A stretch of DNA of 64,000 nucleotides, from assembly GCF_002093625.1 (NCBI RefSeq), contig NZ_MRWD01000001.1, positions 1 through 64,000 on the forward strand. The letters run 5' to 3'. This DNA comes from Rouxiella silvae (GTDB lineage: Bacteria; Pseudomonadota; Gammaproteobacteria; Enterobacterales; Enterobacteriaceae). This document shows, piece after piece, positions 1,982 through 18,752 of this stretch. The translations under genes were made by a program, and so were the position numbers. Positions within the stretch are counted from its first letter, which is position 1, and the number at the start of each line of letters is the position of its first letter. The notes beneath the pieces were generated by a model. The model was not told the origin of the DNA and did not search any database. It was given only the letters and a program-made list of their open reading frames with translations.

Positions 1982-2090
1982 TTTCTAATTAAACAAATCA
2001 CGTAGATTTTAAAGGATTATTTTATACCCCCACGAAACTTGTTATCTTGTTTTGTTTGTAACAAAGATGTTCGCAATTATGTACAAATAA
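1982..2090 (-). promoter_or_regulatory. Candidate promoter/operator of FUSC copy 1
   Basis: On the minus strand TATAAA (2021-2026) lies downstream of the near-palindrome TTTGTTACAAAC (2054-2065). The same pair occurs before FUSC copy 2, with the two elements 11 bp further apart. The bound regulator is unknown. Confidence 0.4.
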
Positions 2091-2118
2091 AACAAAAAAG
2101 TCACCGCGAGGTGACTTG
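2091..2118 (-). terminator. Rho-independent terminator after FUSC copy 2
   Basis: On the minus strand a GTCACCTCGCGGTGAC hairpin is followed by a T-rich run. It directly follows the stop codon of FUSC copy 2, so the two tandem genes are probably separate transcription units. Confidence 0.75.
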
Positions 2119-2141
2119 ATGTATTAGGAATGCTGCTAGCT

Positions 2142-4187
2142 TTAGACAACTGGCCAGCGCTGGCTCGGGAACAGCGCCATACGGATGTTAAACAGATAAA
2201 AAAGCGGGCTGAAGAGCTGCATATCGGTGCGACACAGCCCCTCCGTTTTTAATAACAGATTGTCCAGTTCGTTAAGCAATGACGCCGGGGGAGCGAGGTA
2301 GATATTTTTCAATCGCATTTTAAAATATCCAGTTATCTCAGCCATTAACGCGTCGCTGTCGAGCATATTTTCTTTAAGCAATTCCTGGTGGCGCGCATAA
2401 AAATCATAGCAGTTGACCCCTAACCAGACTTCAGTGATCAAATTGCCACCCAGTGCCACGCCCGGCCTAGGGTCCACTTTGTTACGCGGCAGAATGATAT
2501 TTATTTTATCAATCATGCTTGCCACATACTGCTGGCGCGACAGTAGCGACGAGGCATTCATTTTTATTTCAGAAGTAAACTGCAGCAGCTCTTTAATGCC
2601 ACGACGCAATACGCGCCTAGCCATCCAGGCAGGTCGCTTGTTGCGAATGATTGCCGTGAGCACTACGGCGATAACAATGCCCACTACCGTTGATATCGCT
2701 GCATTAATAATCGACAGCAGATCCGGCTTAAGGTCGTGAGTCATGCCAATAAACCCAGGGATCTGGGTGGCGATAATCAGTCCGATAAAGTTGGTTGAAG
2801 GATTGGCAATGACTAAGCCCAATGCTATCAGTCCTGGCGCGAGAACAATCACCAAAGACTCAAAGGTGATCGTTAAGGGAATAAAAATACCGACGTACAT
2901 GATGCTGATTACGATCGCCAACAGCACGCCTTTCAGAAACACCTTCATGGAGGCAATCGGGCTGTCTAACGAGGCAAAAAATGAGCATACCACCGCCGCC
3001 ATCATGGGTGCCGTTGAGCCATCTTTCCAGCCGGTGCCTATCCAGAACAGGCACCCTATCATGGTGGCGGTAAACGCGGTAAAACATGAAAGCAGGATTA
3101 ACCCTTTATCAGAGTGCTTGCGAATTAATTTAGTTTTGCCACGTTTTTTCTCGGGCGCAATCGATGTAACGCGCTCTTTGGCCCCCAAATAAGACTCGGA
3201 GAGGCGAATAAAATTTTGCAAACGCTCCATCAGGCCAATCAGCAGCAGCCCTTCTTCGGCACTCATTTCTCCACGGGCGTACAGCATTTTAATCCTTTCT
3301 TGCGATCCGCTGATGTCGTCCTGAATCGCCTGCGCATTGCCGCTCTGCTCAGGGCTGTTCAACCACTGCAGAAAATGGCTAAACGACTCGGCCACAAAGT
3401 CAGGAAAGGTAATGCCCTGCTCTGCCAATAAACTCAAACGCTTTTCAATTGCCGTCAGAGTGGGGATCAAATAAGAAAGGTGCTGATACTGAGCACTAAC
3501 CAAGCGGATCAGTTTTCGAGCGGAATCCCCTTCGTACACCAGGTGGGTTATCAAAGCTTCGACGCTGAGGGGATAATTCGCCATCTGCACCAAAATATGT
3601 TCTCTTTCCGGTGAACCTTCTTTTGTTTCGGCAGTAAGCAATTCATTGCAAAGCTTCTTGGCACTGTCGTACCAGTGACTTACGCTGCTTTCCAGCAAAT
3701 TGCGCATCCGCACTGGGAAAACCAACATGTGGATCAGACTGCTGCAAACGATGGCGACGGTTATCTCCTCAACGCGCGATATCACGGTATAAGTGATGTC
3801 GAGCGGAACGGTTACGTCGGCAAAGCCCATGATAGCTGCGCTGTATCCGGCCAGCATAAAGATGTAACTTTTCGGGGTTCGGTCATGTAGCGAAAGATAG
3901 AGGCAGCAGGCTACCCACAGTGAAACACTGAGGCTAAACAACAACGGAAAAGTGACAGTGATGGGATAGATAAGAAAAATAAATATCCCGCCCAACACGG
4001 TGCCAAGAAAACGGAACAGCGCCTTTGACAGAGTTGAAGCGGAATAAAGCTGCGAGATGACGTAAACCGAGACCATTGCCCAGGCCGGTTTATCGAGGTT
4101 AAGTTCAAGCGCAATGTATAGGGCTAAAAATGCCGCTACACAAGTCTTCACTGCGAACAAAATCGCATTTTTTGTTAACCATTTCAT
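2142..4187 (-). CDS. FUSC-family inner-membrane protein (copy 2)
   Basis: A 681-residue membrane protein. Its first membrane bundle (about residues 5-165) carries LDKPAWAMVSVY. A soluble segment follows, then a second bundle (about 365-515) with GSTAPMMAAVVCSFFASLDS, then a cytosolic C-terminus. The fold matches FUSC/AaeB-like efflux proteins. It is strongly similar along its whole length to the next gene downstream (1-1981), so the pair is a tandem duplication. It has its own promoter-like region and terminator. Export of an aromatic acid or similar compound is a family-based guess. The related core gene yccS lies at 42.6 kb. Confidence 0.88.
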   Translation of the reverse strand: MKWLTKNAILFAVKTCVAAFLALYIALELNLDKPAWAMVSVYVISQLYSASTLSKALFRFLGTVLGGIFIFLIYPITVTFPLLFSLSVSLWVACCLYLSLHDRTPKSYIFMLAGYSAAIMGFADVTVPLDITYTVISRVEEITVAIVCSSLIHMLVFPVRMRNLLESSVSHWYDSAKKLCNELLTAETKEGSPEREHILVQMANYPLSVEALITHLVYEGDSARKLIRLVSAQYQHLSYLIPTLTAIEKRLSLLAEQGITFPDFVAESFSHFLQWLNSPEQSGNAQAIQDDISGSQERIKMLYARGEMSAEEGLLLIGLMERLQNFIRLSESYLGAKERVTSIAPEKKRGKTKLIRKHSDKGLILLSCFTAFTATMIGCLFWIGTGWKDGSTAPMMAAVVCSFFASLDSPIASMKVFLKGVLLAIVISIMYVGIFIPLTITFESLVIVLAPGLIALGLVIANPSTNFIGLIIATQIPGFIGMTHDLKPDLLSIINAAISTVVGIVIAVVLTAIIRNKRPAWMARRVLRRGIKELLQFTSEIKMNASSLLSRQQYVASMIDKINIILPRNKVDPRPGVALGGNLITEVWLGVNCYDFYARHQELLKENMLDSDALMAEITGYFKMRLKNIYLAPPASLLNELDNLLLKTEGLCRTDMQLFSPLFYLFNIRMALFPSQRWPVV

Positions 4188-4224
4188 ATTTTAATCAACA
4201 GCTCACAATATTCTAAAACAGTAT

Positions 4225-4280
4225 TTTATACCGATTGAGATAAGAGTACTGCTTTTTAAATTTTTTAAGTTTGTAACAAA
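4225..4280 (-). promoter_or_regulatory. Candidate promoter/operator of FUSC copy 2
   Basis: On the minus strand TTTGTTACAAAC (4269-4280) lies 38 bp upstream of TATAAA (4225-4230). The same two elements precede FUSC copy 1 with a 27-bp gap. Confidence 0.4.
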
Positions 4281-4304
4281 ATAATCACAATTCATGCACT
4301 AAAA

Positions 4305-4347
4305 GGGCCTGACGTACGGCATAAATAACCGCACGACAGGCCCATCA
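4305..4347 (-). terminator. Terminator after the tailspike-like gene
   Basis: On the minus strand GGGCCTG...CGG and CCG...CAGGCCC form a long hairpin followed by TTTTAG. It closes the leftward island transcript. Confidence 0.65.
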
Positions 4348-4360
4348 TTACCGCTTCAGT

Positions 4361-7012
4361 TTAAATTCTCACAATGTTGATCACCACCTCCATCTGCGAC
4401 TGGGCCTGCTGGCGGAAGTTCATGTCTACCCCTGTCGTGTTATCAACAAAATCGACCGTAATGGCCGAGGTGCTATAACTCGAGATAACGTTGTGTGAAT
4501 AGGTGCCCCCACTTGAAAGAACAAATATGCGGTAGGAACCGCAGTTCCCCGCATAGTTGGTTTTCAGGGTAATATCATAAATACTGCCTTCATCCAGGTG
4601 CTTGTCCTGCGCCGAGTCTTTGAGAGTCGTAATCGTGGTAGACGTGGTGCTGGACGGCCCCAGCTTGATGGCCACCGGTGTTCCCTCATACAGGCGATCT
4701 TGCATATAGAGCTTTTTCTGGAAATTAACGTAGTCCGCCGTCACATACGAGTAGGCTGAGGACTCAACCGGCGTGTTGATAAACGCCAACGTGGTGCCGG
4801 AGTTGGTCACGCTCAGTCCGTGGAAGCAGTCGGTCGGATCCTCGTAGGAGTTTTGGTATTGCAAATTGGAAGTATGCAGCAGGCCGCCAATAATTCCTGA
4901 AAGATATCCCGCCGTCACTTGAACTCTGCCAAACGCCGTCCTTTCAAAGTCATGGAAGATATCGAAGAAGTTGGTCTTGCTAGCATTATCCCCGCAGAGC
5001 GTGACGGCAGTATAAGTCAGACTCACGCCGGTGACTGTGGTGCAACTAATGGTTTGCCCCACGGTCCACGGAAAGACGCCACTGCCGTCATAAACTGAAA
5101 TATTGCTGCTGGCAGCTACCACGGCGTAGGTGCTTCCTTGGTAGGTGTAGTAGAACAGAAACTCGAGCGGCGTAGTGCCATTGGTGAGCTTCAGTCCGGT
5201 CTGACCGGCAATCGACGACAGGCCGGTGGTAGAATCAAGTTCGACCACCCCGACGTAGCGACCGTTATAATCCCAATCGCCGCTCAACTGTGCGTACTGA
5301 CCGCAGTCGAAGAGCCAGATCCCGCCCCAGTAGTTCGCCGCAATAAACTTGACCGAAACTTTCCAGCCTTCGACGATTGGGTTGGTCCCAGTGGTCCCAT
5401 TTTTCAAGAATACGCCGACAAAGTTGCTCGACCAGTAATCACCTGTCAGTTGGTTCGAGGAATTTGGCCACTGATGCGCGCCGGTGCGAACCACCGCGAT
5501 ACAGTTGGTCGCTGAGCCGATATGAATATGCGACAACGCGAAACCATAGCCGGTTGGGACGACACCGTCGGCTTTGCTACCCCCGTCAAGTACGTTGATA
5601 AACAGATTCAATCCGGTGGCGTTACCGATCAGGTCGCCAATGGAAATCATCGGCGTTGCGTCCCAGAATGAGGTATTGCTCGGGAAGCTGCTGCTGACGC
5701 TCAGGGAGTGAATAGAAATATTCAAACCGTTGCCAAAAATATTACGAATTTTGACTGTGCCAGAAATCGAATAGCTGCCGGTGCCGCGCACCTCAAGAAT
5801 TCCACGACTCACTGCCGCGTCAATGGCCGCCTGAATAGCCGTCGTCCAGTCACCGGCCGCAGAGTTGGTATCGGCGAAGTCTTCGATATCTAGATAGCGT
5901 GCCAGCTTATTGGTCTGTGAGGCCAGAGTGGTGCCCGAATAGTTGAAGGCTGAACCCAAGGTGCCGTTGGCGTAATCAATCGTTTGGTCATACCCCACGG
6001 AACCGGCCCCCGACGAGGTGGCAAGTGCAGACAGTTGATTGTTAATAGAGGTCAGATTGGTTGCCGCCGAATTGAAAGCCGAGCCTACAGTGCCACCGGC
6101 ATAGCTCACCGTAGAGCTATAACCAACGGAACCGGCACCGGACGAGGTGCCGAGTGCCGCCAGTTGGTTGTTATTAGACGTTAAATTGGTTGCTGCTGAA
6201 TTGAAGGCCGAGCCGACGGTGCCGTTAGCATAGCTGACCGTCGAATCATAACCCACCGAGCCTGCACCAGAAGACGTGGCGAGTGCCGCCAGTTGGTTAT
6301 TGTTTGAGGTCAAATTGGTTGCCGCCGAATTGAAGGCTGCTCCGACCGTGCCGCTTGCATAGCTCACCGTTGAGTCATAGCCTACAGAGCCCGCGCCAGT
6401 AGAGGTCGCCAGTGCTGCCAGTTTATTGTTATTGGTCGTCAGATTAGTGGCCGCAGAATTGAAGGCTGCCCCAACCGTGCCGCTGGCATAGGTCACGGTT
6501 GAGTCGTAACCCACAGAACCCGAGCCGGTAGAGGTCGCCAGTGCCGCTAGCTTATTGTTATTGGTCGTCAGATTAGTGGCCGCCTGACTTAATGATGCCC
6601 CAATGGTGCCACTGGCATAGGTCAGAGTTTGGTCATAACCGACATAACCCGAACCGGTTGTGCCCGAGAGTGCTGACTGCATGGTCTCGAGCGCCCTTTG
6701 CGCTGCCGCAGTTTCAGCAGCAGAGGTAAAGATAACCGAAATGGTTTTTGAGGTTGCACCCGTTAACGCCGCAGTGACCACGTAAGAGGCCGCCGTAGTG
6801 CTGGTGACATAGCCAAACACGCTGCCGGCACTACCGGTAGTGACCGTGCTGGCAGTCAGAGTGGCGCCGGTGGTTACCGAAAGTGTTACCGTAACGTTCG
6901 CCACGCCAGCGCCGGTCACAGAATCGTTGACCAGTACCTGGAATGAGTTGTTCGAGCTGCCGTCTGCCTGTGCGCCGTTAGTGACGCGAGTTAACGTTAA
7001 TACATTAGCCAT
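4361..7012 (-). CDS. Tailspike-like beta-helix protein with N-terminal Ig-like domain and six 43-residue repeats
   Basis: 883 residues. Residues 1-100 form an Ig-like domain resembling those of the two Ig proteins upstream. Residues 123-375 are six units of 43 residues (consensus near SVGYDSTVSYASGTVGAAF) that resemble the short linker before phage tailspike beta-helices. From about residue 385 the pattern DWTTAIQAAIDAA marks the start of a right-handed parallel beta-helix, as in pectate-lyase-like tailspikes. A beta-rich C-terminus (about 790-883) follows. No signal peptide is visible. It is the last gene of the island transcript, after the lysis genes. It could be a polysaccharide-binding or -cleaving receptor protein, but no tail genes accompany it. 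Polysaccharide as the substrate is inference. Confidence 0.75.
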   Translation of the reverse strand: MANVLTLTRVTNGAQADGSSNNSFQVLVNDSVTGAGVANVTVTLSVTTGATLTASTVTTGSAGSVFGYVTSTTAASYVVTAALTGATSKTISVIFTSAAETAAAQRALETMQSALSGTTGSGYVGYDQTLTYASGTIGASLSQAATNLTTNNNKLAALATSTGSGSVGYDSTVTYASGTVGAAFNSAATNLTTNNNKLAALATSTGAGSVGYDSTVSYASGTVGAAFNSAATNLTSNNNQLAALATSSGAGSVGYDSTVSYANGTVGSAFNSAATNLTSNNNQLAALGTSSGAGSVGYSSTVSYAGGTVGSAFNSAATNLTSINNQLSALATSSGAGSVGYDQTIDYANGTLGSAFNYSGTTLASQTNKLARYLDIEDFADTNSAAGDWTTAIQAAIDAAVSRGILEVRGTGSYSISGTVKIRNIFGNGLNISIHSLSVSSSFPSNTSFWDATPMISIGDLIGNATGLNLFINVLDGGSKADGVVPTGYGFALSHIHIGSATNCIAVVRTGAHQWPNSSNQLTGDYWSSNFVGVFLKNGTTGTNPIVEGWKVSVKFIAANYWGGIWLFDCGQYAQLSGDWDYNGRYVGVVELDSTTGLSSIAGQTGLKLTNGTTPLEFLFYYTYQGSTYAVVAASSNISVYDGSGVFPWTVGQTISCTTVTGVSLTYTAVTLCGDNASKTNFFDIFHDFERTAFGRVQVTAGYLSGIIGGLLHTSNLQYQNSYEDPTDCFHGLSVTNSGTTLAFINTPVESSAYSYVTADYVNFQKKLYMQDRLYEGTPVAIKLGPSSTTSTTITTLKDSAQDKHLDEGSIYDITLKTNYAGNCGSYRIFVLSSGGTYSHNVISSYSTSAITVDFVDNTTGVDMNFRQQAQSQMEVVINIVRI
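5888..6646 (-). repeat. Six tandem 129-bp coding repeats in the tailspike-like gene
   Basis: Six in-frame units of 43 codons start at residues 123, 166, 209, 252, 295 and 338. Units 2-4 are nearly identical; units 1, 5 and 6 have diverged. Confidence 0.9.
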
Positions 7013-7059
7013 GATAATATCCTTAGAGATTGATTAAGTTAGGGTTTGTGTGTTGTGGA

Positions 7060-7383
7060 TCAGTGCTGTCTTGCGACTTCTATTTGGCGGATGCCGTCTA
7101 GCTGGGTGTTACAGTTTTCTAAATTGGTGAGTAAAAGCTCATTCCATAGCACCGATGCGCCATAAGTGAGGGGGTCACTGGGCGGTGGAGACGGCTGGCA
7201 CTGCGCGAGCAGACCTGAGGGTATCGGTGTTACGGGAACTTTGACGTACTGCGTTGTAGTGGTTGAGCAAGCTGTCATTAGCGGCAGCAGCAACAGGCAC
7301 CAAATTGCACGGCGCCGTTTGAAGAACTCGTTTAATGATAGTTTGTCTCCTCTGACTTGCGGTTTGGTTAGTCTGTTGGTCAT
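7060..7383 (-). CDS. Rz1-like outer-membrane spanin lipoprotein
   Basis: 107 residues. The hydrophobic segment WCLLLLPLMTAC ends in a lipobox-like Cys and is followed by a proline-rich stretch (PSPPPSDP), as in o-spanins. The start lies inside the Rz gene in another frame and the ORF runs about 115 bases past the Rz stop, a nested arrangement typical of Rz/Rz1. The product should be an outer-membrane lipoprotein that joins Rz across the periplasm and fuses the two membranes at lysis. It is longer than many Rz1 proteins. Met-Thr-Ala before the Cys is an imperfect lipobox. Confidence 0.85.
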   Translation of the reverse strand: MTNRLTKPQVRGDKLSLNEFFKRRRAIWCLLLLPLMTACSTTTTQYVKVPVTPIPSGLLAQCQPSPPPSDPLTYGASVLWNELLLTNLENCNTQLDGIRQIEVARQH

Positions 7384-7594
7384 TTAGCGTTGCCCCTGCA
7401 ATCTGATTAAAAATACCCACGCTCAGCCCCTGAGACTGGACGATAAACTCGGCCTCCTTTTTCTGTTGGGTCAGTGTGGACAATGACGCAGCCTGAGAAA
7501 CAGTTTGACCGTAGTAATGAAAAGCCAGAAACATCAGCAGGCCGATGCAGGCCATCACCAGCAGAGTGGTCATCAGCGCGATTTTATTGATCAT
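7175..7594 (-). CDS. Rz-like inner-membrane spanin
   Basis: 139 residues with one N-terminal membrane segment (about 5-27) and a periplasmic helical region, the form of an i-spanin. Its start overlaps the endolysin stop as ATGA, which suggests translational coupling. Rz1 is nested in its 3' half. With Rz1 it should disrupt the outer membrane in the last step of lysis. Assignment rests on topology and gene order, since spanin sequences vary widely. Confidence 0.85.
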   Translation of the reverse strand: MINKIALMTTLLVMACIGLLMFLAFHYYGQTVSQAASLSTLTQQKKEAEFIVQSQGLSVGIFNQIAGATLNDQQTNQTASQRRQTIIKRVLQTAPCNLVPVAAAANDSLLNHYNAVRQSSRNTDTLRSARAVPAVSTAQ

Positions 7595-8085
7595 GATTGC
7601 CCCATCAGGCAGACCTGCCGGTCAATCTCGCGCCGATTTATCAGGCCACGATTGCGTTTTTTATTGACGTAAACCCACCGCCGAAGGTCATCGCAGGCCT
7701 GCCTGGTATTACCGGCATTAATGTGCCTTAGTAAGGACGATCGTTTGAACGCGCTGACGCCTACGTTGTAGGCAAAGGAGTACAGTGCGGCACGGGTGTA
7801 GCGGTCCAAAGGGACGGTTACGGCGTTATCAACGGCCGTTTTAACCGGTGCCAAATGCTTGATAAGCAAAGCATCGCACGCTTTGTCGGAGTAATATTTT
7901 CCCGGTAATACGTCGGGACCGGTGATGCCGCTGCACACTGTCCATACCCCGCCAACGTCGCGATAGGGCGTGCTTCTCTGCCCTTCAACACCGTCAGGTC
8001 CGCCCAGCAGCGATATGGCGATGGTTAGCGCGGTTGCTCCGCCTAATTTAACCATTTTGCTTTTCAGTTCCGGTGACATAGCCAT
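7591..8085 (-). CDS. SAR-type endolysin, glycoside hydrolase family 24 lysozyme
   Basis: 164 residues. E34, D43 and T49 fit the GH24 triad spacing E-x8-D-x5-T (EGQRSTPYRDVGGVWT). Residues 11-30 are a weakly hydrophobic, Gly/Ala-rich segment like the signal-arrest-release anchors of P21-type endolysins. Such enzymes are exported by Sec, stay tethered and inactive, and are freed when the membrane depolarises. The enzyme cleaves the MurNAc-GlcNAc bonds of peptidoglycan. It overlaps the holin stop by one base (TAATG) and the Rz start by ATGA. Confidence 0.92.
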   Translation of the reverse strand: MAMSPELKSKMVKLGGATALTIAISLLGGPDGVEGQRSTPYRDVGGVWTVCSGITGPDVLPGKYYSDKACDALLIKHLAPVKTAVDNAVTVPLDRYTRAALYSFAYNVGVSAFKRSSLLRHINAGNTRQACDDLRRWVYVNKKRNRGLINRREIDRQVCLMGQS

Positions 8086-8390
8086 TATGTTTCTACCTTG
8101 TTGATGACTTCGTTGACCTCATTGGCAACGCCTGCTGGCTCGATATCGGCATTATTTTTTCTGCCGGCCAGATAGGACCGAAGTATCTCGGTTCTCTTTT
8201 CGTCCTCGCTTTGCCTCTCCTTTAAAGCAAGCTTGTTATTGCGATAAGAGTTAAACGACAGCAGTGCGCCAAAAATGGCGCAAAACACATAAATCCATTG
8301 CTCAGTGGTCAGACCCGCCGCACTAAATAGTGCGGTGATCGTGGCCCAGAAATGCGTCCAGAATCCGTCACTTTGTGGGTTCATTTTCAT
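8085..8390 (-). CDS. Holin (HP1/class II-like) with Met-Lys-Met start
   Basis: 101 residues from the ATG at 8390. That start is chosen because GGAGGTGGAG lies just upstream; an upstream ATG at 8462 would add 24 residues without such a site. The protein has a hydrophobic N-terminal stretch (FWTHFWATITALFSAAG), a clear membrane segment (EQWIYVFCAIFGALLSF) and a charged helical tail. It lies directly upstream of the SAR endolysin, the usual holin position. With a SAR endolysin it probably acts as a pinholin-like depolariser, which is inference. It begins Met-Lys-Met, like the dual-start holin S of phage lambda. Confidence 0.82.
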   Translation of the reverse strand: MKMNPQSDGFWTHFWATITALFSAAGLTTEQWIYVFCAIFGALLSFNSYRNNKLALKERQSEDEKRTEILRSYLAGRKNNADIEPAGVANEVNEVINKVET

Positions 8391-8494
8391 AGTCTCCACC
8401 TCCAACTGCCGTTGGCTGTGCACTGTTGCCATAGGGATTAGCGCCGGAATACGTTGCGACAAGAAGTCAGGGAAGGTTGAGTATTCGGCGCTAA

Positions 8495-8522
8495 GGATTT
8501 ATTGAGGACCGCATGAGTATTT
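8495..8522 (-). repeat. Degenerate third copy of the Q-gene tail
   Basis: On the minus strand AAAAAATACTCATGCGGTCC matches the end of the Q gene (AAAAAAGTGCTCACGCGGTCC) and copy B near 10.35 kb. In frame it reads ILMRSS, against VLTRSA in Q. Confidence 0.55.
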
Positions 8523-8543
8523 TTTAGAGGTATTTGCAAAGGC

Positions 8544-8873
8544 CTAAAGATACTTTTCTTTAAGCGCCACCAGTTCGGCTTCGGCGTCTTGCCCGAGCAC
8601 CTCAATCCCTTTTTCAACAAAGGCAACAAACGCCTCAACCCTGGTTTTGAAGTCTGCCAAAGGAGAAGGTGTCGCCTCGTTTGAGATTGCGACCGGCGTT
8701 GCAACGGGCAGAACTGCGGCTGCGCTGGCCAGCGAGGCAATGGACTCGCCAGGCTGGGGTATGAAACTTAGGGTTTCGTTATTCATAGAATTCTCCAGAT
8801 GCGTTGCGGTTTTACTCGCGGTGACGGGGATGTAATAGAGGCTTTTCAGCCAGTTGAACAAGTGTTGAATCAT
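8544..8873 (-). CDS. Small island protein sharing a C-terminal module with the Ig-like proteins
   Basis: 109 residues from the ATG at 8873, which follows AGAGGTGAGG. A second well-placed start exists at 8786 (TGGAGAAT before the ATG) and would give 80 residues, so both may be used. The first 29 residues are aromatic and basic, and the middle is Ala/Val/Pro-rich. The last 38 residues (LADFKTRVEAFVAFVEKG... to KEKYL) match the module that ends both Ig-like proteins. No function is recognised. It lies between Ig protein 2 and the holin. Confidence 0.6.
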   Translation of the reverse strand: MIQHLFNWLKSLYYIPVTASKTATHLENSMNNETLSFIPQPGESIASLASAAAVLPVATPVAISNEATPSPLADFKTRVEAFVAFVEKGIEVLGQDAEAELVALKEKYL

Positions 8874-8921
8874 TTCGCCTCACCTCTGTTATTAAGGTTT
8901 GAACTGCATGAAATAATTGAG

Positions 8922-8942
8922 CCTGCGGGTCGCAGGCTCTTG
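8922..8942 (-). terminator. Hairpin between Ig protein 2 and the small island gene
   Basis: GAGCCTGCG and CGCAGGCTC form a perfect 9-bp stem with a 3-base loop. It is followed by AATTATTT on the minus strand, a weak T-tract. It is probably a terminator or attenuator. Confidence 0.5.
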
Positions 8943-8948
8943 AATATC

Positions 8949-10187
8949 TTACTGATACTTCGTTTTAAGCTGTAAAAATGCGGCACTGAGGTTTTGATTC
9001 AGTGTTGAAACATTTTGCTCGACGTACCCGTTGAACGTTTCATCATTAGTTTCAAACGCAGACAGGGCATCGGTCACACTGCTTTGGGTCACTGAGGCGC
9101 CAAGCTGTGACAAGGCGGCCTCCACGTTTTGGCCAACAGAATCGAGCTGCTGCTGGACATAGGCAATAAACGTAGCCACGTCGGTCTTGAACGCGGTGAG
9201 AGAATCATCGCCCGTTCCAGGCAGTGCCGTTTTAGAGACAAAAGTAATGATCTCCGAGGCAAAGGTGCCGTCTGCCAGTGTCGCGGTCAGATTGGCATTA
9301 CCCACGGTATTACTGAATACATAGGCCACCGCCTGGCCGTTGGCGTCAGTGGTTGCCGGATTGACAGTGAGGTCAAGATTGGCGCCATTGTCCGCGCTCC
9401 AGGTCAGCGTCTGTCCCGCCGCCGCCGCGCCGGTAGAATCGAGCACCGTTGCCGCGACAGTATTGGCCGACCCGTTAGGCCCGGCCAGTTGATTACTGGT
9501 TCGGGATAACAGACTGATGCTAAACGGGCCGACCGGCGTAGTGACCGGCGGGGTCTCGGGCTTGGCGACAAAGTTGATCACCGTAGAAGCTGAAGTGCCG
9601 TCTGCCAGTGTTGCGGTCAGATTGGCATTACCCACGTTATTACTGAATACATAGGCCACCGCCTGGCCGTTGGCGTCAGTGGTTGCCGGATTGACAGTGA
9701 TGTCAAGATTGGCACCATTGTCCGCGCTCCAGGTCAGCGTCTGTCCCGCCGCCGCCGCGCCGGTAGAATCGAGCACCGTTGCCGCGACAGTATTGGCCGA
9801 CCCGTTAGGCCCGGCCAGTTGATTACTGGTTCGGGATAACAGACTGATGCTAAACGGGCCGACCGGCGTAGTGACCGGCGGGGTCTCGGGCTTGGCGACA
9901 AAGTTGATCACCGTAGAAGCTGAAGTGCCGTCTGCCAGTGTTGCGGTCAGATTGGCATTACCCACGGTATTACTGAATACATAGGCCACCGCCTGGCCGT
10001 TGGCGTCAGTGGTTGCCGGATTGACAGTGAGGTCAAGATTGGCGCCATTGTCCGCGCTCCAGGTCAGCTTTAATCCGGCTGTCGCAACGCCATTCGAGTC
10101 AACGACCTTGGCGGCAACCCTATTGGCAGTACCGTTTGGGCCCACGAGTTGATTACTGCTAAGTGCAGTGAAGCTAATTGAGTACAT
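8949..10187 (-). CDS. Bacterial Ig-like (Big_1) repeat protein 2
   Basis: 412 residues. Three Ig-like domains of 110 residues each resemble the Big_1 domains of invasin/intimin (for example TDANGQAVAYVFSN and NLTATLADGTSAS), joined by PETPPVTTPVG linkers. Two copies of an about 40-residue helical module follow, ending in LQLKTKYQ. There is no signal peptide or membrane segment. The start has TTTAGGA upstream. Domains 1-3 are nearly identical at DNA level. Family knowledge suggests an adhesion or virion-decoration role; no partner is evident. It lies between Q and the lysis genes, a position where phages often carry extra (moron) genes. Confidence 0.82.
   Translation of the reverse strand: MYSISFTALSSNQLVGPNGTANRVAAKVVDSNGVATAGLKLTWSADNGANLDLTVNPATTDANGQAVAYVFSNTVGNANLTATLADGTSASTVINFVAKPETPPVTTPVGPFSISLLSRTSNQLAGPNGSANTVAATVLDSTGAAAAGQTLTWSADNGANLDITVNPATTDANGQAVAYVFSNNVGNANLTATLADGTSASTVINFVAKPETPPVTTPVGPFSISLLSRTSNQLAGPNGSANTVAATVLDSTGAAAAGQTLTWSADNGANLDLTVNPATTDANGQAVAYVFSNTVGNANLTATLADGTFASEIITFVSKTALPGTGDDSLTAFKTDVATFIAYVQQQLDSVGQNVEAALSQLGASVTQSSVTDALSAFETNDETFNGYVEQNVSTLNQNLSAAFLQLKTKYQ
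9271..10187 (-). repeat. Near-identical 330-bp repeats in Ig protein 2
   Basis: The segment beginning TCTGCCAGTG recurs at 9271, 9601 and 9931, an exact 330-bp period equal to one 110-residue Ig domain plus linker. Long stretches match with only occasional substitutions. This implies recent duplication or gene conversion. Confidence 0.93.
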
Positions 10188-10203
10188 AACTTTTCCTAAA
10201 TTG

Positions 10204-10232
10204 ATTTAAGGTTTGGCAGAAATGCCAGGCAA
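10204..10232 (-). promoter_or_regulatory. Candidate promoter of Ig protein 2
   Basis: On the minus strand TTGCCT (10227-10232) and TTAAAT (10204-10209) are 17 bp apart. They lie just after the hairpin pair and just before the gene. A private promoter behind a terminator is typical of moron genes. Confidence 0.4.
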
Positions 10233-10369
10233 TAAAAAAGGGCCACCGAAGTGACCCTTAAACGAAAAAACCCCGCCGAGGCGAGGTTTTTACAGGAGTT
10301 GGCTACGTGACTAAGTAACCAGTATTGATAGAGTAAACGGCTTTTTGCGGACCGCGTGAGCGTTTTTTA
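10233..10369 (-). repeat. Copy B of the Q-tail and twin-hairpin cassette
   Basis: About 137 bp matching copy A (11647-11786). Both hold AAAAAAGGGCCACCGAAGTG, then a second GC hairpin, then TTGGCTACGTGACT, then GCGGACCGCGTGAGC. Read on the minus strand this copy encodes ALTRSAKSRLLYQY, a remnant of the Q C-terminus (VLTRSAKSPLLY) in which the stop TAA has become CAA. It lies after the stop of Ig protein 1 and is not part of an evident gene. Confidence 0.85.
10234..10292 (-). terminator. Twin hairpins between Ig protein 1 and Ig protein 2
   Basis: On the minus strand AACCTCGCCTCGGCGGGGTT precedes TTTTCG, and GGGTCACTTCGGTGGCCC precedes TTTTTTA. Each stem plus T-run looks like a rho-independent terminator. 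An antiterminator such as Q could read through them. Confidence 0.7.
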
Positions 10370-10409
10370 CTCCGCACGCCATTTATTTTTTCCCGTTAAT
10401 GACGACGCG

Positions 10410-11609
10410 TTACTGATACTTCTGTTTGAGCTGTAAAAAGGCTGCATCGACGTTTTGACCCAGCGCCACCATGCCTTGCTGGAAATAAGTTTCAAAACTC
10501 TTCGCGTTGGTTTCGAACTGGGTCCACGCCGAGGGTACATCTTCAGCCGTGACCGAGGTTGAAAGCTGTAATAATGCGGAACCCACATTTTGCTCTAATG
10601 ACGTAAAGGCTTGTTGCACATAAGTAATAAAGGTTGAGACATCGGCTTTGAAGGCGGCCAGTTCCGTTCCAGAGTCTCCTCCCGAGGCAACAAAACCTAT
10701 CACCAGCTTGGCTGCCGTTCCGTCTGTCAGAGTAGCATTAACCGTAGCATCACCTGCTGTATCACTGAATATCGCGATACTGGTCGTGCCGTTACTTTGA
10801 GTTTTCATCTTATTTGAATCAATGAAATAGGCGCCATTATCTACGCTAAAACTTACCACCTGTTCGGCGATAGCCGCGCCCGTTTCATCAATCACCTTCG
10901 CCTCAACGACGTCCGGCGTACTGCTTACAATCTGATGATTAACAGAGGCATCGAGCGTTAGCGTCATTTTTCCGGTCGGGTTGACGACGGGGGGAGTTCC
11001 GGTGTCAGCCACAAAGGAAATCACTGTGTTAGCCGACGTTCCGTCTGTCAGCGTGGCACTCACCGCAGAATCACCGACCGTATTGCTGTATATGAGAATA
11101 TTGGCCGTGCCGTTACTGCCGGTAATGACCTTGTTGCCGTCTAGGAAGTAGGCACCGTTATCTACACTGAAACTCACGGACTGTTTAGCGATGGCGACGC
11201 CGGTAGAATCGACAACCTTTGCCTCTACCACGTCGGCAATTTTGCCGACAATTTGATTATTGGTCGAGACGTTAAGAATCAACGTTAATGCCCCCACCGG
11301 TGTGGTGACCGGCGGCAGACCGGGATCGGCGATAAAGGTCACAACAACAGTGGCCGAGGTGCCATCGACAAGCTTTGCGGTTACCGTCGAGTTGCCCACG
11401 GTATGGCTGAATACTGAAATAGTGTTGGTGCCATTGCTTCCTGTCGTAACGGCATTTCCAAGAAAATAGGCGTTATTGTCGGCGCTAAATTTGACCACCT
11501 GCCCTGCTACGGCTGACCCGGCTTCATCGACAACTTTAGCCTCAACGACATCTGCAATTTTTCCGACAATTTGATTATTGGTTGATAGTGAAAGAGTCAA
11601 GGTATACAT
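10410..11609 (-). CDS. Bacterial Ig-like (Big_1) repeat protein 1
   Basis: 399 residues. Three Ig-like domains of about 105 residues share the motif NNQIVGKIADVVEAKVVD and are joined by LPPVTTPVG-type linkers. Two copies of the helical module follow, the second ending LQLKQKYQ. The domains are more diverged from one another than those of Ig protein 2. No signal peptide is visible. The start has AAGAAGGA upstream. It is the first gene after Q and is preceded by twin hairpins. A decoration, adhesion or baseplate-like role is possible from the domain type only. Confidence 0.82.
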   Translation of the reverse strand: MYTLTLSLSTNNQIVGKIADVVEAKVVDEAGSAVAGQVVKFSADNNAYFLGNAVTTGSNGTNTISVFSHTVGNSTVTAKLVDGTSATVVVTFIADPGLPPVTTPVGALTLILNVSTNNQIVGKIADVVEAKVVDSTGVAIAKQSVSFSVDNGAYFLDGNKVITGSNGTANILIYSNTVGDSAVSATLTDGTSANTVISFVADTGTPPVVNPTGKMTLTLDASVNHQIVSSTPDVVEAKVIDETGAAIAEQVVSFSVDNGAYFIDSNKMKTQSNGTTSIAIFSDTAGDATVNATLTDGTAAKLVIGFVASGGDSGTELAAFKADVSTFITYVQQAFTSLEQNVGSALLQLSTSVTAEDVPSAWTQFETNAKSFETYFQQGMVALGQNVDAAFLQLKQKYQ

Positions 11610-11646
11610 GGATGTGTCCTTCTTTATTTTGTAGGTACATGGGTCG

Positions 11647-11786
11647 AAAAAAAAGGGCCACCGAAGTGACCCTTTAAATGTAAAGACCCCGCCTGGGCGA
11701 GGTCTTTACTGACGTTGGCTACGTGACTCAGTAACCAGTATTAATACAGTAGCGGGCTTTTCGCGGACCGCGTGAGCACTTTTTTC
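11647..11786 (-). repeat. Copy A of the Q-tail and twin-hairpin cassette
   Basis: This is the presumed original of the cassette repeated at 10233-10369. Bases 11741-11776 encode the last 12 codons of Q plus its TAA stop. The rest is intergenic and holds two hairpins. Confidence 0.85.
11649..11712 (-). terminator. Twin hairpins directly after the Q gene
   Basis: On the minus strand AAAGACCTCGCCCAGGCGGG pairs into a hairpin ending GTCTTT. GGGTCACTTCGGTGGCCC followed by eight T forms a second. They separate Q from the Ig-like genes. Confidence 0.75.
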
Positions 11787-12172
11787 GGTTCACGATAAAT
11801 TTCTACAGTCGGGTCCATATCCAGCGGTACGTCGATCATCGCCAGGCACCCCTCAACAAAACCCTCAGCCATTTGCAGCATAATACGCACCAGCTTTTCA
11901 TCCCTTTTCATGACCCGGGCAATGGCGCGCTTCGGCTGATTCATAACGTAATGCAGAACCAGCAGCTGATACTCCTCAGGCCTTAGGGTTTTTAAACGCG
12001 TGATACATCCATCAATCAGTAAACCGTCTTCATCGCAGCATGAAAGACGCGACTTTGAGGTGTTAGGTAACAGACTTTTGAAGCCGTTCGCCGTTCTCTG
12101 CCAGTCCAGTTGACTGTTATCCGCCGCCGCCCAACCGCCCCAGCGCTCTAAAACTTGTGGTATATCTCTCAT
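11741..12172 (-). CDS. Phage antitermination protein Q-like
   Basis: 143 residues. The N-terminus MRDIPQVLERWGGWAAADNS is the signature of the Phage_antitermQ family. The middle (YQLLVLHYVMNQPKRAIARV) looks like a helix-turn-helix. Such proteins bind RNA polymerase paused at a late promoter and let it pass downstream terminators. Hairpins lie immediately after the gene and again between the Ig-like genes, which fits that role. The start overlaps the stop of a 10-codon ORF (TTATGA), with GAGGA upstream. Its last 12 codons are duplicated twice downstream. Confidence 0.88.
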   Translation of the reverse strand: MRDIPQVLERWGGWAAADNSQLDWQRTANGFKSLLPNTSKSRLSCCDEDGLLIDGCITRLKTLRPEEYQLLVLHYVMNQPKRAIARVMKRDEKLVRIMLQMAEGFVEGCLAMIDVPLDMDPTVEIYREPKKVLTRSAKSPLLY

Positions 12173-12201
12173 AAGATGTCCTCTACAGGTCGCGTAATCA
12201 T
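12169..12201 (-). CDS. Ten-codon ORF coupled to Q
   Basis: Encodes MITRPVEDIL. Its ATG overlaps the stop of the 26-codon ORF upstream (ATGA) and its TGA overlaps the ATG of Q. It may be a coupling peptide or the scar of a deleted phage gene. Expression is not shown. Confidence 0.35.
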   Translation of the reverse strand: MITRPVEDIL

Positions 12202-12278
12202 GCTTTGCCGCCTTGCAGCTGCGGGAACTTTTCCAGATTGAGGGCGCTAAACCCTGCGCTGGCTTCTCTAAGTTTCAT
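12198..12278 (-). CDS. 26-codon ORF, first in the leftward island transcript
   Basis: Encodes a 26-residue peptide starting MKLREASAGFSALNLEKFP and ending GGKA. It starts just inside the operator region opposite the repressor, where intact lambdoid phages carry cro. It is too short for Cro and has no strong ribosome site. The ATGA overlap with the next ORF suggests a coupled array of three reading frames ending in Q. It may be the fused remnant of genes lost by deletion. Confidence 0.35.
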   Translation of the reverse strand: MKLREASAGFSALNLEKFPQLQGGKA

Positions 12279-12298
12279 TTGCAAACGTGCTTCACAAG

Positions 12299-12361
12299 CT
12301 AAGTTAACTTAGATAATATATCCAAGGTTAAATTTGATCAAATAAAACTAAGATAACTTAG
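12299..12361. promoter_or_regulatory. Operator pair between repressor and Q operon
   Basis: CTAAGTTAACTTAG (12299-12312) is a perfect 14-bp palindrome. CTAAGATAACTTAG (12348-12361) shares both 5-base arms. Their centres are 49 bp apart, in the AT-rich gap between the divergent transcripts. The second site abuts the repressor start, which suggests autoregulation. A half site (TCTAAG) lies near 12267. Confidence 0.7.
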
Positions 12362-12383
12362 TTAATTTTATTGAGAGTGGATT

Positions 12384-13016
12384 ATGGAATCGGTTGGCGC
12401 GCGACTTAAAAGGCTTCGCAGAATAACCAAGACAACGCAGAAAGCACTGGGTGAGTACTGCGGCGTTTCGGATGTCACTGTGGGATATTGGGAAAAAGAT
12501 CTCAACGTTCCTAAAGCTGAATCGTTATTGAAGCTTGCAAAATATTTCAATACCACAGAAGCTTATGTACTTTATGGTACTGATTTTGCAGGACTACAAC
12601 CCCTAGTGACCAGCGTTAGAAAGATCCCTATTCTTTCGTGGGTTCAGGCAGGTGTATTCACGGAGTCAGAATCAAGTGAACTTTTTGAGAGAGCAGAATA
12701 CTGGATGGAAACCGGCCTACGCGTATCATCAGACTCATTTGCTCTAACGGTGCGTGGTGATTCAATGACCAATCCTTCGGGGCTACCGAGTATCCCGGAA
12801 GGCTCAACCGTCATTGTCGATCCTCACGTAGAGGCCACTCATGGAAAAATCGTTGTCGCCCGCATTGCTGGAACCAGCGAGGCAACAATGAAGAAGTTGG
12901 TTATTGACGGGCCGAATAAGTATCTCGTTCCACTCAACCCGCGCTATGCCAACATTCCTATCAATGGCAACTGCGAGATTATCGGCGTAGTACGCGGCGT
13001 ACAGTACGAAATATAA
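12384..13016 (+). CDS. LexA/CI-like phage repressor with S24 peptidase domain
   Basis: 210 residues. The N-terminal helix-turn-helix (about 1-65) includes TQKALGEYCGVSDVTVGYWE. The C-terminal S24 domain has an Ala-Gly cleavage site in WVQAGVF, a nucleophile Ser in RGDSM and a Lys in ATMKKLV. Repressors with these residues self-cleave when RecA is activated by DNA damage. It is divergent from the Q operon and faces two palindromic operators. A terminator follows at 13038-13077. No integrase, excisionase or antirepressor lies nearby, so the repressor seems to govern the leftward operon alone. Confidence 0.92.
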   Translation: MESVGARLKRLRRITKTTQKALGEYCGVSDVTVGYWEKDLNVPKAESLLKLAKYFNTTEAYVLYGTDFAGLQPLVTSVRKIPILSWVQAGVFTESESSELFERAEYWMETGLRVSSDSFALTVRGDSMTNPSGLPSIPEGSTVIVDPHVEATHGKIVVARIAGTSEATMKKLVIDGPNKYLVPLNPRYANIPINGNCEIIGVVRGVQYEI

Positions 13017-13037
13017 TTTAATTAGCGCATGACCTAT

Positions 13038-13077
13038 AAAAAGGAGCCAAGGCAGCGTTCACCTTTGCTCCTTTTTT
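13038..13077 (+). terminator. Terminator after the repressor gene
   Basis: AAAAAGGAGCCAAGG and CCTTTGCTCCTTTTTT form an imperfect stem with a T-run. It may work in both directions. Confidence 0.7.
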
Positions 13078-13119
13078 AATGGCAGGCCCCTTTGCTCGGG
13101 AACTGTCAATACGGGCCTA

Positions 13120-13725
13120 TTATGAATGGGTGCCGGGACATTGCTCTGACAAATTAGTCAGGTTCTCAGCCTCATGCTGGAAGCTGATTTTGTTGCTTGC
13201 GCTGCCCTGATTGATTTTTAGAACAAAAATACTGTCAAAATCACTGCCGGGCCAGGTAGGCACGGTGGTGGGGTCAGCCCCCTCAGCTTTCATAATATTT
13301 TTAACTAATTTATCGAGATTTTTGTGTTCCCAAGAAACAAATACCAGTGAATTGCTATACGTGTTGCTCAACAGTGCCTTTTGAACGCCAGCAATATCAT
13401 CCGCATGGAACTGAATATCAATCGGCATAGAAAGCTGGATAGCCGTTGGGGTGATGGTGGTCAATGGTCTGAGAGAACTTCCTGACTTATCTTCCTTCGG
13501 CCCCGCGGCGAAGATAGCAGCCGGTTTTCCATAACGGGACAGCAAAACGCCAGGCAGAGCCAGTGCCCGGTTAAGTCCCTTACAGGTTAACTGCCCGCTG
13601 CTGTTAACCGGTTTTTCACCATGGCGGACAAAAACGATGGTTTGTTCGGCCTGAGCTACGGATATATTCGCGATGCCCGTAGCCAGCAATAAAGCAAATC
13701 CACCCATTCTAATTAGCGATTTCAA
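13120..13725 (-). CDS. Periplasmic histidine phosphatase superfamily protein
   Basis: 201 residues. A signal peptide (about 1-26, ending VAQA) is followed by FVRHGEKP, the RHG motif whose His is phosphorylated in this superfamily. The later EHKNL may hold the second catalytic His. The substrate is unknown; relatives act on sugar or polyphosphate esters. It lies between the island and the 3' end of tRNA-Leu and could be part of the island or core. The long stretch upstream (13726-13970) holds no convincing gene. Confidence 0.78.
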   Translation of the reverse strand: MKSLIRMGGFALLLATGIANISVAQAEQTIVFVRHGEKPVNSSGQLTCKGLNRALALPGVLLSRYGKPAAIFAAGPKEDKSGSSLRPLTTITPTAIQLSMPIDIQFHADDIAGVQKALLSNTYSNSLVFVSWEHKNLDKLVKNIMKAEGADPTTVPTWPGSDFDSIFVLKINQGSASNKISFQHEAENLTNLSEQCPGTHS

Positions 13726-13976
13726 TCTGGCACCCCTGATTTAATAATGTAGTTCAACGTGTTACATAGAGTTAATTCTGAGAAATCCGGTGAATTACCC
13801 AGCATGTGACAATAAAATCGCCAAGAATCCACCCTAAAATATGCCGCATTAAAGACGCTCAGTAAACGCAGTAATCGTTTCAATTTGCTTTCACAGAGGA
13901 TGCTGCAAGATAGTGCAATTTCAATTGAGATGAAAATGATAGAGGGGTAAGGAGAAATATTATGAAACCCCAAAAA

Positions 13977-14000
13977 CAAAAAAACCACCCGAAGGTGGCA
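13977..14000 (-). terminator. Terminator of the tRNA operon
   Basis: On the minus strand GCCACCTTCGGGTGG is followed by a T-run. It ends the glyW-cysT-leuZ transcript. Confidence 0.8.
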
Positions 14001-14048
14001 TAACGACATTACTACTTTATTGCTTTTGATTATTCAGCTAATTTTCCA

Positions 14049-14135
14049 TGGTACCCGGGACGAGACTTGAACTCGTACAGCGCGAACGCCGAGGGATTTT
14101 AAATCCCTTGTGTCTACCGATTCCACCACCCGGGC
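14049..14135 (-). tRNA. leuZ: tRNA-Leu (UAA)
   Basis: 87 nt with encoded CCA, a long variable arm and the anticodon UAA in the loop of a GGGAT/ATCCC stem. It is the last tRNA of the trio. Its 3' end faces the phage-derived island, a common integration side. No direct repeat of its 3' end was seen at the far side of the island. Confidence 0.95.
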
Positions 14136-14146
14136 TCCGGGAAAAT

Positions 14147-14220
14147 TGGAGGCGCGTTCCGGAGTCGAACCGGACTAGGCGGATTTGCAATCCGCTACAT
14201 AACCGCTTTGTTAACGCGCC
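14147..14220 (-). tRNA. cysT: tRNA-Cys (GCA)
   Basis: 74 nt with encoded CCA; anticodon GCA in GCGGATTGCAAATCCGC; acceptor GGCGCGT paired to ACGCGCC. Confidence 0.95.
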
Positions 14221-14274
14221 TTAATTCTTTACTTTTCTTACTGTTAGCCAGAAATATGTTCTACCTAACGAATT

Positions 14275-14350
<76 letters not shown>

Positions 14351-14420
14351 TTTAATCAGAACTTACTGATTTTTTTAGCTTATCTTCTGGCTAACTGCTC
14401 ACTGCCTTCCGATGCGTTGC

Positions 14421-14448
14421 ATTCTACTTGGCTGACGCGATGAGTCAA
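14421..14448 (-). promoter_or_regulatory. Promoter of the glyW-cysT-leuZ operon
   Basis: On the minus strand TTGACT (14443-14448) and TAGAAT (14421-14426) are 16 bp apart and followed by a GC-rich stretch. They lie about 75 bp upstream of tRNA-Gly. Confidence 0.6.
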
Positions 14449-14498
14449 TAAAATTATCAGCTCATCGTGACTGATTGCCGTTTTTTAAATCAGTTCGA

Positions 14499-15047
14499 TC
14501 AAGGTTCCAGCAGATCATTACGTGCAGCAAACAGATATTGGAACATTGACCAGAAAGTCAGCACCGCAGCAATGTACAACGCGACAACGCCGACGCCGAC
14601 AGCGATATCGTTTGGACGCCATAATAGCGCCACCAACGACAGCATCTGCGCCATCGTTTTTACTTTACCTATCCAGGAAACCGCCACGCTGCTACGTTTT
14701 CCGATCTCCGCCATCCATTCTCTGAGCGCAGAAATAATAATTTCGCGCGCTATCATGGTCGCCGCCGGCAGCGTTATCCACCAGGCGTGGAAATATTCCG
14801 CCACCAGCACTAGCGCAATCGCGACCAGCACCTTGTCGGCCACGGGATCAAGGAACGCACCAAAGCGAGTAGTTTGCTTCCAGCGACGAGCAAGATAGCC
14901 ATCAAACCAGTCGGTAATCGCGGCGAGAACGAAAATCAAGGCGCAAGCTGTAGGAGCCCAAACGTACGGCAGATAAAAAGCCAGCACGAAGAACGGGATC
15001 ATGACAACGCGAAACAGGGTAAGGCACGTCGGTATATTAAATTGCAT
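14499..15047 (-). CDS. pgsA: CDP-diacylglycerol-glycerol-3-phosphate 3-phosphatidyltransferase
   Basis: 182 residues, the usual length. The CDP-alcohol phosphatidyltransferase motif D-G-x2-A-R-x8-G-x3-D-x3-D spans residues 49-71 ([20 protein letters not shown]...D). Several membrane segments flank it. It makes phosphatidylglycerophosphate, the committed step to phosphatidylglycerol and cardiolipin. It lies downstream of uvrC as in E. coli. Confidence 0.97.
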
Positions 15048-15104
15048 GTGCGTAGGTAACTATCTGTCCGATGTAGATATTATGAGTATGTTGCTACAAT
15101 GAAC

Positions 15105-18230: not shown

Positions 18231-18284
18231 GAGTTGCACAACTGCCGTCTCCCAGCGTCACAGAGGAATGTGCTAGTATAGCGC
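18225..18284 (+). promoter_or_regulatory. Candidate promoter of the yecF leader
   Basis: TTGCAC (18233-18238) lies upstream of TGTGCTAGTATAG, an extended -10 (TAGTAT near 18275). The spacing is longer than ideal, so the extended -10 is the main support. Confidence 0.4.
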
Positions 18285-18316
18285 CACATTTTCAGCAGCC
18301 TTCCTTTATAGAGGCT

Positions 18317-18370: not shown

Positions 18371-18380
18371 GGAGATTATA

Positions 18381-18605: not shown

Positions 18606-18656
18606 CGATAAGTATGACGCCATCTCGGGTCCATGTTTTGATGAAGCCGAAAGATC

Positions 18657-18686: not shown

Positions 18687-18752
18687 GCCCACGTGGGTTT
18701 AGATTAAATCTGCTAAAATAAAGAACCGTTAATCTGCTTCAAGGTGTATCCC

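Follow-up and report, generated by a model that had tools for sequence, protein, structure and literature searches.

The first 64,000 nucleotides of contig NZ_MRWD01000001.1 of Rouxiella silvae (RefSeq assembly GCF_002093625.1; the window, below) contain an 8.7-kb island in which a phage-type repressor and a Q antiterminator are joined to holin, endolysin, and spanin genes. We consider it probable that this island is a programmed-lysis locus, domesticated and inherited vertically, whose control and lysis modules come from a lambdoid element. Because a switch predicted to sense DNA damage and the lysis genes have been kept intact at a site without phage-building genes, the island suggests that Rouxiella lyse a fraction of their own cells with it in response to a signal. 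What selection favors is most likely a population-level release, through lysis of a few cells, of proteins, DNA, or vesicles. The features of the island are listed here by window position, with E values of family or structure matches or the kind of prediction in parentheses.

4305..4343, minus strand: terminator-like hairpin that closes the island before the FUSC-type transporter gene (fold)
4361..7012, minus strand: tailspike-like protein, 883 amino acids (phrog_20911, 4.4e-108; Big_1, 2.8e-12)
7060..7383, minus strand: Rz1 outer-membrane spanin, overlapping Rz (PF23793 [LysC], 1.2e-16)
7175..7594, minus strand: Rz inner-membrane spanin (phrog_214, 4.8e-26)
7591..8085, minus strand: signal-arrest-release (SAR)-type endolysin of the Phage_lysozyme family, 164 amino acids (PF00959, 1.9e-38; PDB 4zpu, 4.5e-44)
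8085..8432, minus strand: holin, with start ATG at 8432 (phrog_1350, 8e-18)
8544..8873, minus strand: small protein, 109 amino acids (phrog_22600, 2.6e-26)
8949..10187, minus strand: immunoglobulin-like (Ig) protein 2, 412 amino acids, three Big_1 stretches (Big_1)
10238..10259, minus strand: terminator-like hairpin 3' of late element 2, with a second hairpin just upstream (fold)
10302..10359, minus strand: late-promoter-like element, copy 2 (alignment of copies)
10410..11609, minus strand: Ig protein 1, 399 amino acids, three Big_1 stretches and a helical C-terminal part (Big_1)
11652..11709, minus strand: two tandem intrinsic-terminator hairpins 3' of late element 1 (fold)
11718..11775, minus strand: late-promoter-like (putative Q-recognition) element 1, overlapping the end of Q (alignment of copies)
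11741..12172, minus strand: Q antiterminator, 143 amino acids, the first gene under the repressor (PF06530, 7.6e-48)
12299..12312, no strand: predicted operator 1, a perfect 14-bp palindrome, CTAAGTTAACTTAG (palindrome search)
12348..12361, no strand: predicted operator 2, CTAAGATAACTTAG, 49 bp from operator 1 (palindrome search)
12384..13016, plus strand: S24 (lambda-CI/LexA-like) repressor, 210 amino acids (PF00717, 1.4e-27, plus a helix-turn-helix [HTH] domain; PDB 3bdn, 1.9e-24)

The repressor alone lies on the plus strand and all remaining island genes on the minus strand, between the FUSC-type transporter gene (2142-4187) and a tRNA-Leu/Cys/Gly-pgsA-uvrC cluster (from 14049). A sequence-only reading of this DNA had described a repressor-controlled lysis island devoid of virion genes. 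Every gene it named is a complete frame with family matches at the positions above, and the description was upheld both by family assignment and by a search with 49 reference virion proteins. All sizeable frames could be assigned by Pfam or PHROG matches (the two Ig proteins scored 6.3e-40 and 2.9e-35 against Big_1, over three stretches each), and no integrase, replication, packaging, capsid, or tail-tube gene was among them. The reference set comprised terminase, portal, protease, capsid, tape-measure, sheath, and other proteins; it gave no match in window positions 1 to 20000 or in the four sister stretches (tblastn, E ≤1e-5), and it is not exhaustive, the DUF3383-type sheaths at four loci having escaped it. 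A scan for structured RNA families within 4000-14500 returned three tRNAs only.

Comparison of six species-level Rouxiella genomes, one representative per species (G000 to G005, with G000 the source genome), recovered the same gene set beyond the source: the genes for Q, holin, endolysin, Rz, and Rz1 adjoin the same FUSC gene in five of the six, and none of these five stretches holds a reference virion protein. The repressor was found in four genomes and the spike in three; the repressor of G001 is out of view, its contig beginning at the operator. The entire island is present in G003 (repressor, 100%; Q, 98%; holin, 100%; endolysin, 96%; spike, 97%). G004 and G005 have the repressor (96%), Q, the small protein, holin, endolysin, Rz, and Rz1, and G001 has Q, a one-Ig protein of 231 amino acids, holin, endolysin, a shorter Rz (117 amino acids), Rz1, and the spike (60% over 571 C-terminal residues). 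Different genes occupy the site in G002. The FUSC side is common to all five islands, and the tRNA side was seen in G000, G003, and G004. Since G002 is also the most divergent genome at the neighboring FUSC gene (75 to 79%, versus 85 to 99% among the other five), a single gain after the split of G002 and a loss in G002 both fit.

Selection has acted on nearly all island genes. The frames were taken from open-frame lists, in which a broken gene would appear as a missing gene, and 40 of the 40 collected from the five genomes are open, with the one-Ig protein of G001 in addition. Ratios of nonsynonymous to synonymous substitution rates (dN/dS) were calculated by a simple counting method for the G000-G003 pair, in which synonymous sites are unsaturated, and point to purifying selection on the repressor, Q, and the lysis genes, Rz1 excepted. 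They were 0 for the repressor, 0.105 for Q, 0.110 and 0.082 for the Ig proteins, 0.227 for the small protein, 0 for the holin, 0.081 for the endolysin, 0.258 for Rz, 0.405 for Rz1, and 0.031 for the spike, with 0.041 for the host neighbor FUSC; the synonymous excess is significant for 9 of the 10 island genes. At a greater distance, the repressors of G000 and G004 are 95.7% identical with synonymous sites saturated. When neutral evolution was simulated at 0.5 substitutions per site, with 500 runs per gene, the four core genes survived as open frames in 0 to 1.8% of the runs. The sequence-only reading had named two findings that would speak against it, namely, close relatives carrying the genes within a full prophage and disrupted frames in sister strains. 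Relatives of single components do occur in full prophages, as shown below; no disrupted frame, and no full prophage with the set at this site, was found.

The anatomy of the switch is likewise conserved. The repressor aligns with lambda CI (PDB 3bdn) at Ala89-Gly90, the cleavage site, and at Ser127 and Lys170/171, which we take to be the catalytic residues. From this CI-like sequence we infer that the repressor is induced by DNA damage. Sites with at most one mismatch to the operator palindrome number two in G000, two in G003, three in G004, three in G005, one in G001, and none in G002 across the whole genomes, and all lie at the island; with the reversed control pattern, G000 had two sites per strand and the remaining five genomes had none. 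No CTGT-N8-ACAG motif (at most one mismatch) lies between Q and the repressor, speaking against direct LexA control. Window-wide, matches to this motif are at chance level (24, versus a mean of 19.4); an exact, LexA-box-like copy occurs outside the island at 45615-45630.

Nine repressors of other genera (loci L120 to L128) are 63 to 72% identical to that of the island, the next best reaching at most 51%. An operator-like pair with 49-bp spacing is found at the repressor start in all nine loci (at most three mismatches per site) and in none of 100 shuffles of each. These loci are of lambdoid prophage type: six of the nine stretches contain a terminase, two have none within 20 kb, and one ends at the contig end. 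They share the repressor and operator pair with the island. In them, genes that by eye look early or replication-type separate the repressor from the late region, whereas in the island the partner promoter of the repressor leads directly into Q. One of them, L121 (G235), is a prophage in reduced form: it has an integrase-like frame, early genes, Q, and genes of lysis type, with only baseplate-wedge and tail-fiber pieces ahead of umuD/umuC-like frames, and its 20 kb gave no reference terminase or capsid matches.

Downstream of Q, an element ending in GTTACT[G/T]AGTCACGTAGC lies directly 3' of the gene in all five islands, with one mismatch in G004, and is followed in each by a hairpin-T terminator (two in tandem in G000, G003, and G001). 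The same element lies 3' of Q in a G003 prophage and 5' of the lysis genes in the prophages G000 C70 and G005 C54. Because it is found after Q or before lysis genes in Rouxiella prophages, it is probably a late promoter recognized by Q. At two mismatches the control matched as often as the pattern, and matches were therefore used only at zero or one mismatch. Every island has a second copy, which precedes Ig protein 2 in G000 and G003, precedes the holin in G001 (where it is diverged), and lies between the repressor and Q in G004 and G005. Since these extra putative late promoters sit in an element that makes no virion, the arrangement suggests remodeling rather than decay. In G004 and G005 the gap between the repressor and Q is about 816 bp (L076 8302-9119 and L077 7486-8303) and holds, besides the extra late-promoter copy, a third operator-like site; it is perhaps the scar of a lost gene.

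Among the lysis proteins, the endolysin has the lysozymes 4zpu (RrrD) and 3hde as its best solved matches, and assignment to the SAR type is supported because both alignments, from residue 4 on, run through the N-terminal segment. Alignment of the holin with five relatives leaves its start uncertain among TTG 8462, ATG 8432, and a later Met. A holin search of the named-genome collection confirmed three loci, two of which are Rouxiella islands. The source genome also carries a prophage on contig C67 (48857 bp; L132, L130, and L252), whose holin and endolysin are 73% and 85% identical to those of the island and which has a terminase, a portal, and a one-Ig phrog_22600-like protein after Rz. The contig is equal in length to the viral record IMGVR_UViG_2832085192_000001.

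Taken together as a circuit, these parts would work as follows. At rest, the CI-like repressor would occupy the two operators and block the Q promoter. DNA damage would lead to RecA-triggered self-cleavage of the repressor, as its CI/LexA-like sequence predicts, and Q would then be made. By its family and the conserved element, Q would load RNA polymerase at the late promoter or promoters just downstream and carry it through the terminators. The late transcripts would yield the Ig and small proteins, holin, SAR endolysin, and spanins, together with the tailspike-like protein in three species. A minority of cells would presumably burst, and their contents, late proteins included, would go out.

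Among the late proteins other than the lysis proteins, Ig protein 2 is a paralogue of Ig protein 1 (47%), and the C-terminal segment of the small protein resembles those of both; the island Ig proteins are enlarged relatives of the small protein, with three Ig domains and a helical C terminus. The structure model of Ig protein 1 has a mean predicted local distance difference test score (pLDDT) of 78.8 and is good for the Ig part only, the Ig blocks scoring mostly 83 to 94 and the C-terminal blocks 58 to 77. Its fold matches are generic: they are Ig adhesins, such as invasin 1cwv (E 3.8e-14), and Big_1 proteins of phages, and the template modeling score for the whole chain is about 0.2. Neither Ig protein 1 nor the small protein had a match in the phage collection search. 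A search with the small-protein family, phrog_22600, gave 37 viral-contig loci, of which 36 were scanned after the Rouxiella badensis island was left out (L240 to L274 and L134; the contigs are partly redundant). Rz and/or Rz1 lie directly upstream in 27 of the 36, an endolysin match only in 5, and neither in 4, and a Big_1 domain is present in both of the longer members tested (n = 2). The phrog_22600 proteins form a widespread family without an assigned function, for which a lysis-linked role seems worth testing.

The tailspike-like protein consists of an N-terminal Big_1 domain, repeats, and a tailspike C-terminal body and is itself tail derived. Its body is 45% identical to the spike of prophage C67, and a search of the phage collection with the island spike matched 11 records, each below 60% identity. 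The Big_1 domain stands at the N terminus of the island spikes in both G000 and G001, while the C67 spike has no Pfam match; the first 90 residues of the latter presumably form its virion anchor. Because the island protein has Big_1 where the prophage spike has another N terminus, its architecture fits a spike that is no longer particle borne. The structure model of the spike was of no use (mean pLDDT 41, three sequences). By eye, no signal peptide was noticed in any of the large proteins.

From these features comes a more specific proposal, which we advance tentatively and regard as possible: SOS-triggered, Q-antiterminated release of stored Ig-repeat proteins and of a freed, Ig-headed tailspike by lysis of a subpopulation, with new late-promoter cassettes before individual late genes. 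If true, the island would be the damage-coupled equivalent of type 10 secretion, or a tailless tailocin. The sequence-only reading had suggested that the three large proteins could be released by induced lysis; that the locus exists to release them was not established. G004 and G005 have neither the Ig pair nor the spike, so that large cargo is no constant part of the island, and the small/Ig family proved to be an ordinary prophage gene. Because two species keep the core without large cargo, the comparison argues that the constant function is lysis itself and not one particular protein; the released product that matters may differ between species.

Several further observations weigh against programmed lysis with release as we propose it. 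The small/Ig family is common in prophages beside Rz/Rz1, and because it is an ordinary neighbor of these genes, the small and Ig proteins may act in lysis instead of being cargo. A pattern search for the late element gave nothing in prophage C67 of the source genome, L133, or five tailocin-like loci. For Rz1, the shortfall from neutrality does not reach significance (p 0.08). In the G000-G003 pair, the dS values of the repressor, Q, holin, Rz, and Rz1 (0.09 to 0.19) are below that of FUSC (0.48) and near that of pgsA (0.22), and because several small island genes fall below FUSC, some exchange between the two species is possible. The front end was also followed beyond the genus by a Q search of 392 genomes of the family, which gave matches (E ≤1e-30) in 81, island genomes counted. 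Twenty matched loci outside Rouxiella were examined: 11 have packaging or head genes (one only fragments), 7 are tailocin-like, and 2 are incomplete stretches; no lysis-only locus was seen among the 20, the 2 incomplete ones included. Finally, six genomes of one genus are the entire basis of the comparison.

That the island is a plain prophage remnant, with its middle lost and the rest decaying neutrally, was the ordinary alternative of the sequence-only reading and is highly improbable. Relatives in prophages speak for it (63 to 72% for the repressor; 73%, 85%, and 45% for holin, endolysin, and tailspike in C67), and loss of the middle would be consistent with the far-end position of the spike and with the neighboring tRNA cluster. 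This alternative fails against a core kept in five of six species, low dN/dS, saturated synonymous sites, and conserved operators and late-promoter elements, and the open frames together with purifying selection in 9 of 10 genes make neutral decay very unlikely. Conservation might instead reflect immunity to related lambdoid phages, with only the repressor useful and the lysis genes hitchhiking. Conservation is overall highest for the repressor (100% in G003, 96% in G004 and G005), and its operator pair is shared with the related loci, but Q, holin, endolysin, and spike are under purifying selection of their own and the late-promoter element, unneeded for immunity, is kept and doubled, so that we judge this explanation decidedly improbable. 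The repressor-operator system, which lambdoid prophages share, might also serve anti-phage suicide, in which infection or a phage antirepressor lifts the repression and the cell bursts ahead of the maturation of phage progeny. This is quite unlikely, as lysis genes are late by design and a comparison of eight island proteins with defense models (Rz and Rz1 lay outside the scan) returned the repressor only, via generic HTH models. Low-level maintenance of the cell wall or of vesicles, without programmed bursting, has a precedent in the role proposed for the DLP12 lysis module (PMC7918800), and the best endolysin match is RrrD; the conserved repressor, Q, and terminators point rather to an all-or-none trigger, and we regard maintenance as unlikely.

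Lysis in trans, for a tailocin, an injection system, or a prophage elsewhere in the genome, draws on the 7 of 20 Q relatives that are tailocin-like with the same repressor-Q-lysis front. These loci (L215, L216, L217, L219, L223, L224, and L231, in other genera) have sheath or baseplate genes, with no terminase, portal, or capsid seen within the stretches examined, and an S24-type repressor match directly beside Q (weak in L217, L223, and L231), followed by an endolysin, which in L217 is of another family; L231 is broken, with a sheath fragment and a transposase-like piece. In the Q tree, all five island Qs form one clade (support 100/98), and the tailocin Qs imply at least two changes of state, going by well-supported branches. 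Searches of the Rouxiella genomes for contractile-type sheaths found PF04984 in five of six (not G005) and PF11863, added because PF04984 alone would miss DUF3383-type sheaths, in four of six (not G001 or G003). Eight loci among the sheath matches were read. Seven bear a terminase (G000 C37, C74, and C67; G001 C36; G002 C18; G003 at 1.81 Mb; G004 at 3.27 Mb), and five of the seven gave matches to lysis genes of their own. The eighth, at 2.15 to 2.17 Mb of G004 (L295, C1:2150000-2169999), combines a lysozyme and a T4-gp19-type tube with at least two sheath frames, and none of the frames read matched a reference terminase; it resembles an extracellular contractile injection system, could use lysis, and may be a partner of the island in G004. 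Rz/Rz1-like frames lie near it, and further sheath matches occur at 2.178 to 2.180 Mb. Against lysis in trans, the operator is found at the island only, the G004 locus has its own lysozyme, and there is no constant partner, because G005 has the island without a PF04984 sheath and G002 has sheaths without the island. We hold this explanation, too, to be improbable.

The site itself is an integration hotspot: beside the tRNA cluster that borders it, G005 has a separate prophage (L078, G005 C9:1-16000) with its own S24 repressor and Q, and the G005 island contig bears an exact 67-bp copy of the tRNA-Leu end (L077 3737-3803). A search within the islands of G000, G003, and G004 for copies of the tRNA-Leu 3' end, as an attachment-site repeat, gave nothing longer than 11 bp. 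Between the repressor and tRNA-Leu, window positions 13120-13725 encode a small protein, present in G000 and G003, that has no Pfam match at 0.01 and by eye is histidine-phosphatase-like and secreted-looking.

Among published circuits, alpR-alpA-alpBCDE of Pseudomonas aeruginosa comes closest to the island, and by lysis genes the closest system is type 10 secretion. As outlined in PMC7969949, the alp system has a damage-cleaved repressor, an antiterminator that reads a promoter element and gets past intrinsic terminators, and lysis genes, with alpB and alpC a putative holin and antiholin, and its authors think it prophage derived. Compared from that description and not by homology, the two share the logic of repressor, antiterminator, and lysis genes, and the gene layout and repressor alignment of the island agree with a putatively self-cleaving repressor set over an antiterminator gene. 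They differ in that the Q of the island is lambdoid (PF06530), its lysis set is holin, SAR endolysin, and Rz/Rz1, and Ig and tailspike-like late proteins are included. Type 10 secretion, as presented in PMC10847048, includes chiWXYZ of Serratia and YenLC of Yersinia entomophaga, with regulators ChiR and RoeA, and YenLC is described there as lytic and SOS insensitive. Like these clusters, the island has holin, peptidoglycan hydrolase, and spanin genes outside a prophage, adjoining genes for proteins without obvious export signals; its late proteins lie in one unit with the lysis genes, their release as cargo being putative. In contrast to YenLC, with its regulation outside the SOS response, the island retains a phage repressor of the S24 family and Q. 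The seven tailocin-like loci resemble it in having an S24-type repressor beside Q and then endolysin and other lysis genes, while the island differs in having no sheath, tube, or baseplate genes; of an R-type tailocin the island holds the lysis module and lacks the tail assembly genes. Of a complete lambdoid prophage it has the CI-type repressor with operators and Q with a late promoter and terminators, as predicted sites, and lacks integrase, replication, packaging, capsid, and tail genes. Lysis genes were also retained after loss of phage function in DLP12 of Escherichia coli K-12, according to PMC7918800, with the related endolysin RrrD; the island differs in keeping the repressor-Q switch as well, across species. 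A holin/endolysin cassette of Yersinia enterocolitica is reported in PMC9718411 as a further case of retained phage lysis genes. By titles and abstract openings, no published description of the island was found among the matches listed.

The island offers a natural case of a phage trigger and bursting machinery kept by selection at a site that makes no particle. It makes testable whether self-lysis of a few Rouxiella cells is maintained for the rest, and what is released. It would join the programmed death of alp, type 10 secretion, and the lysis modules of tailocins as one series of reduced lambdoid elements.

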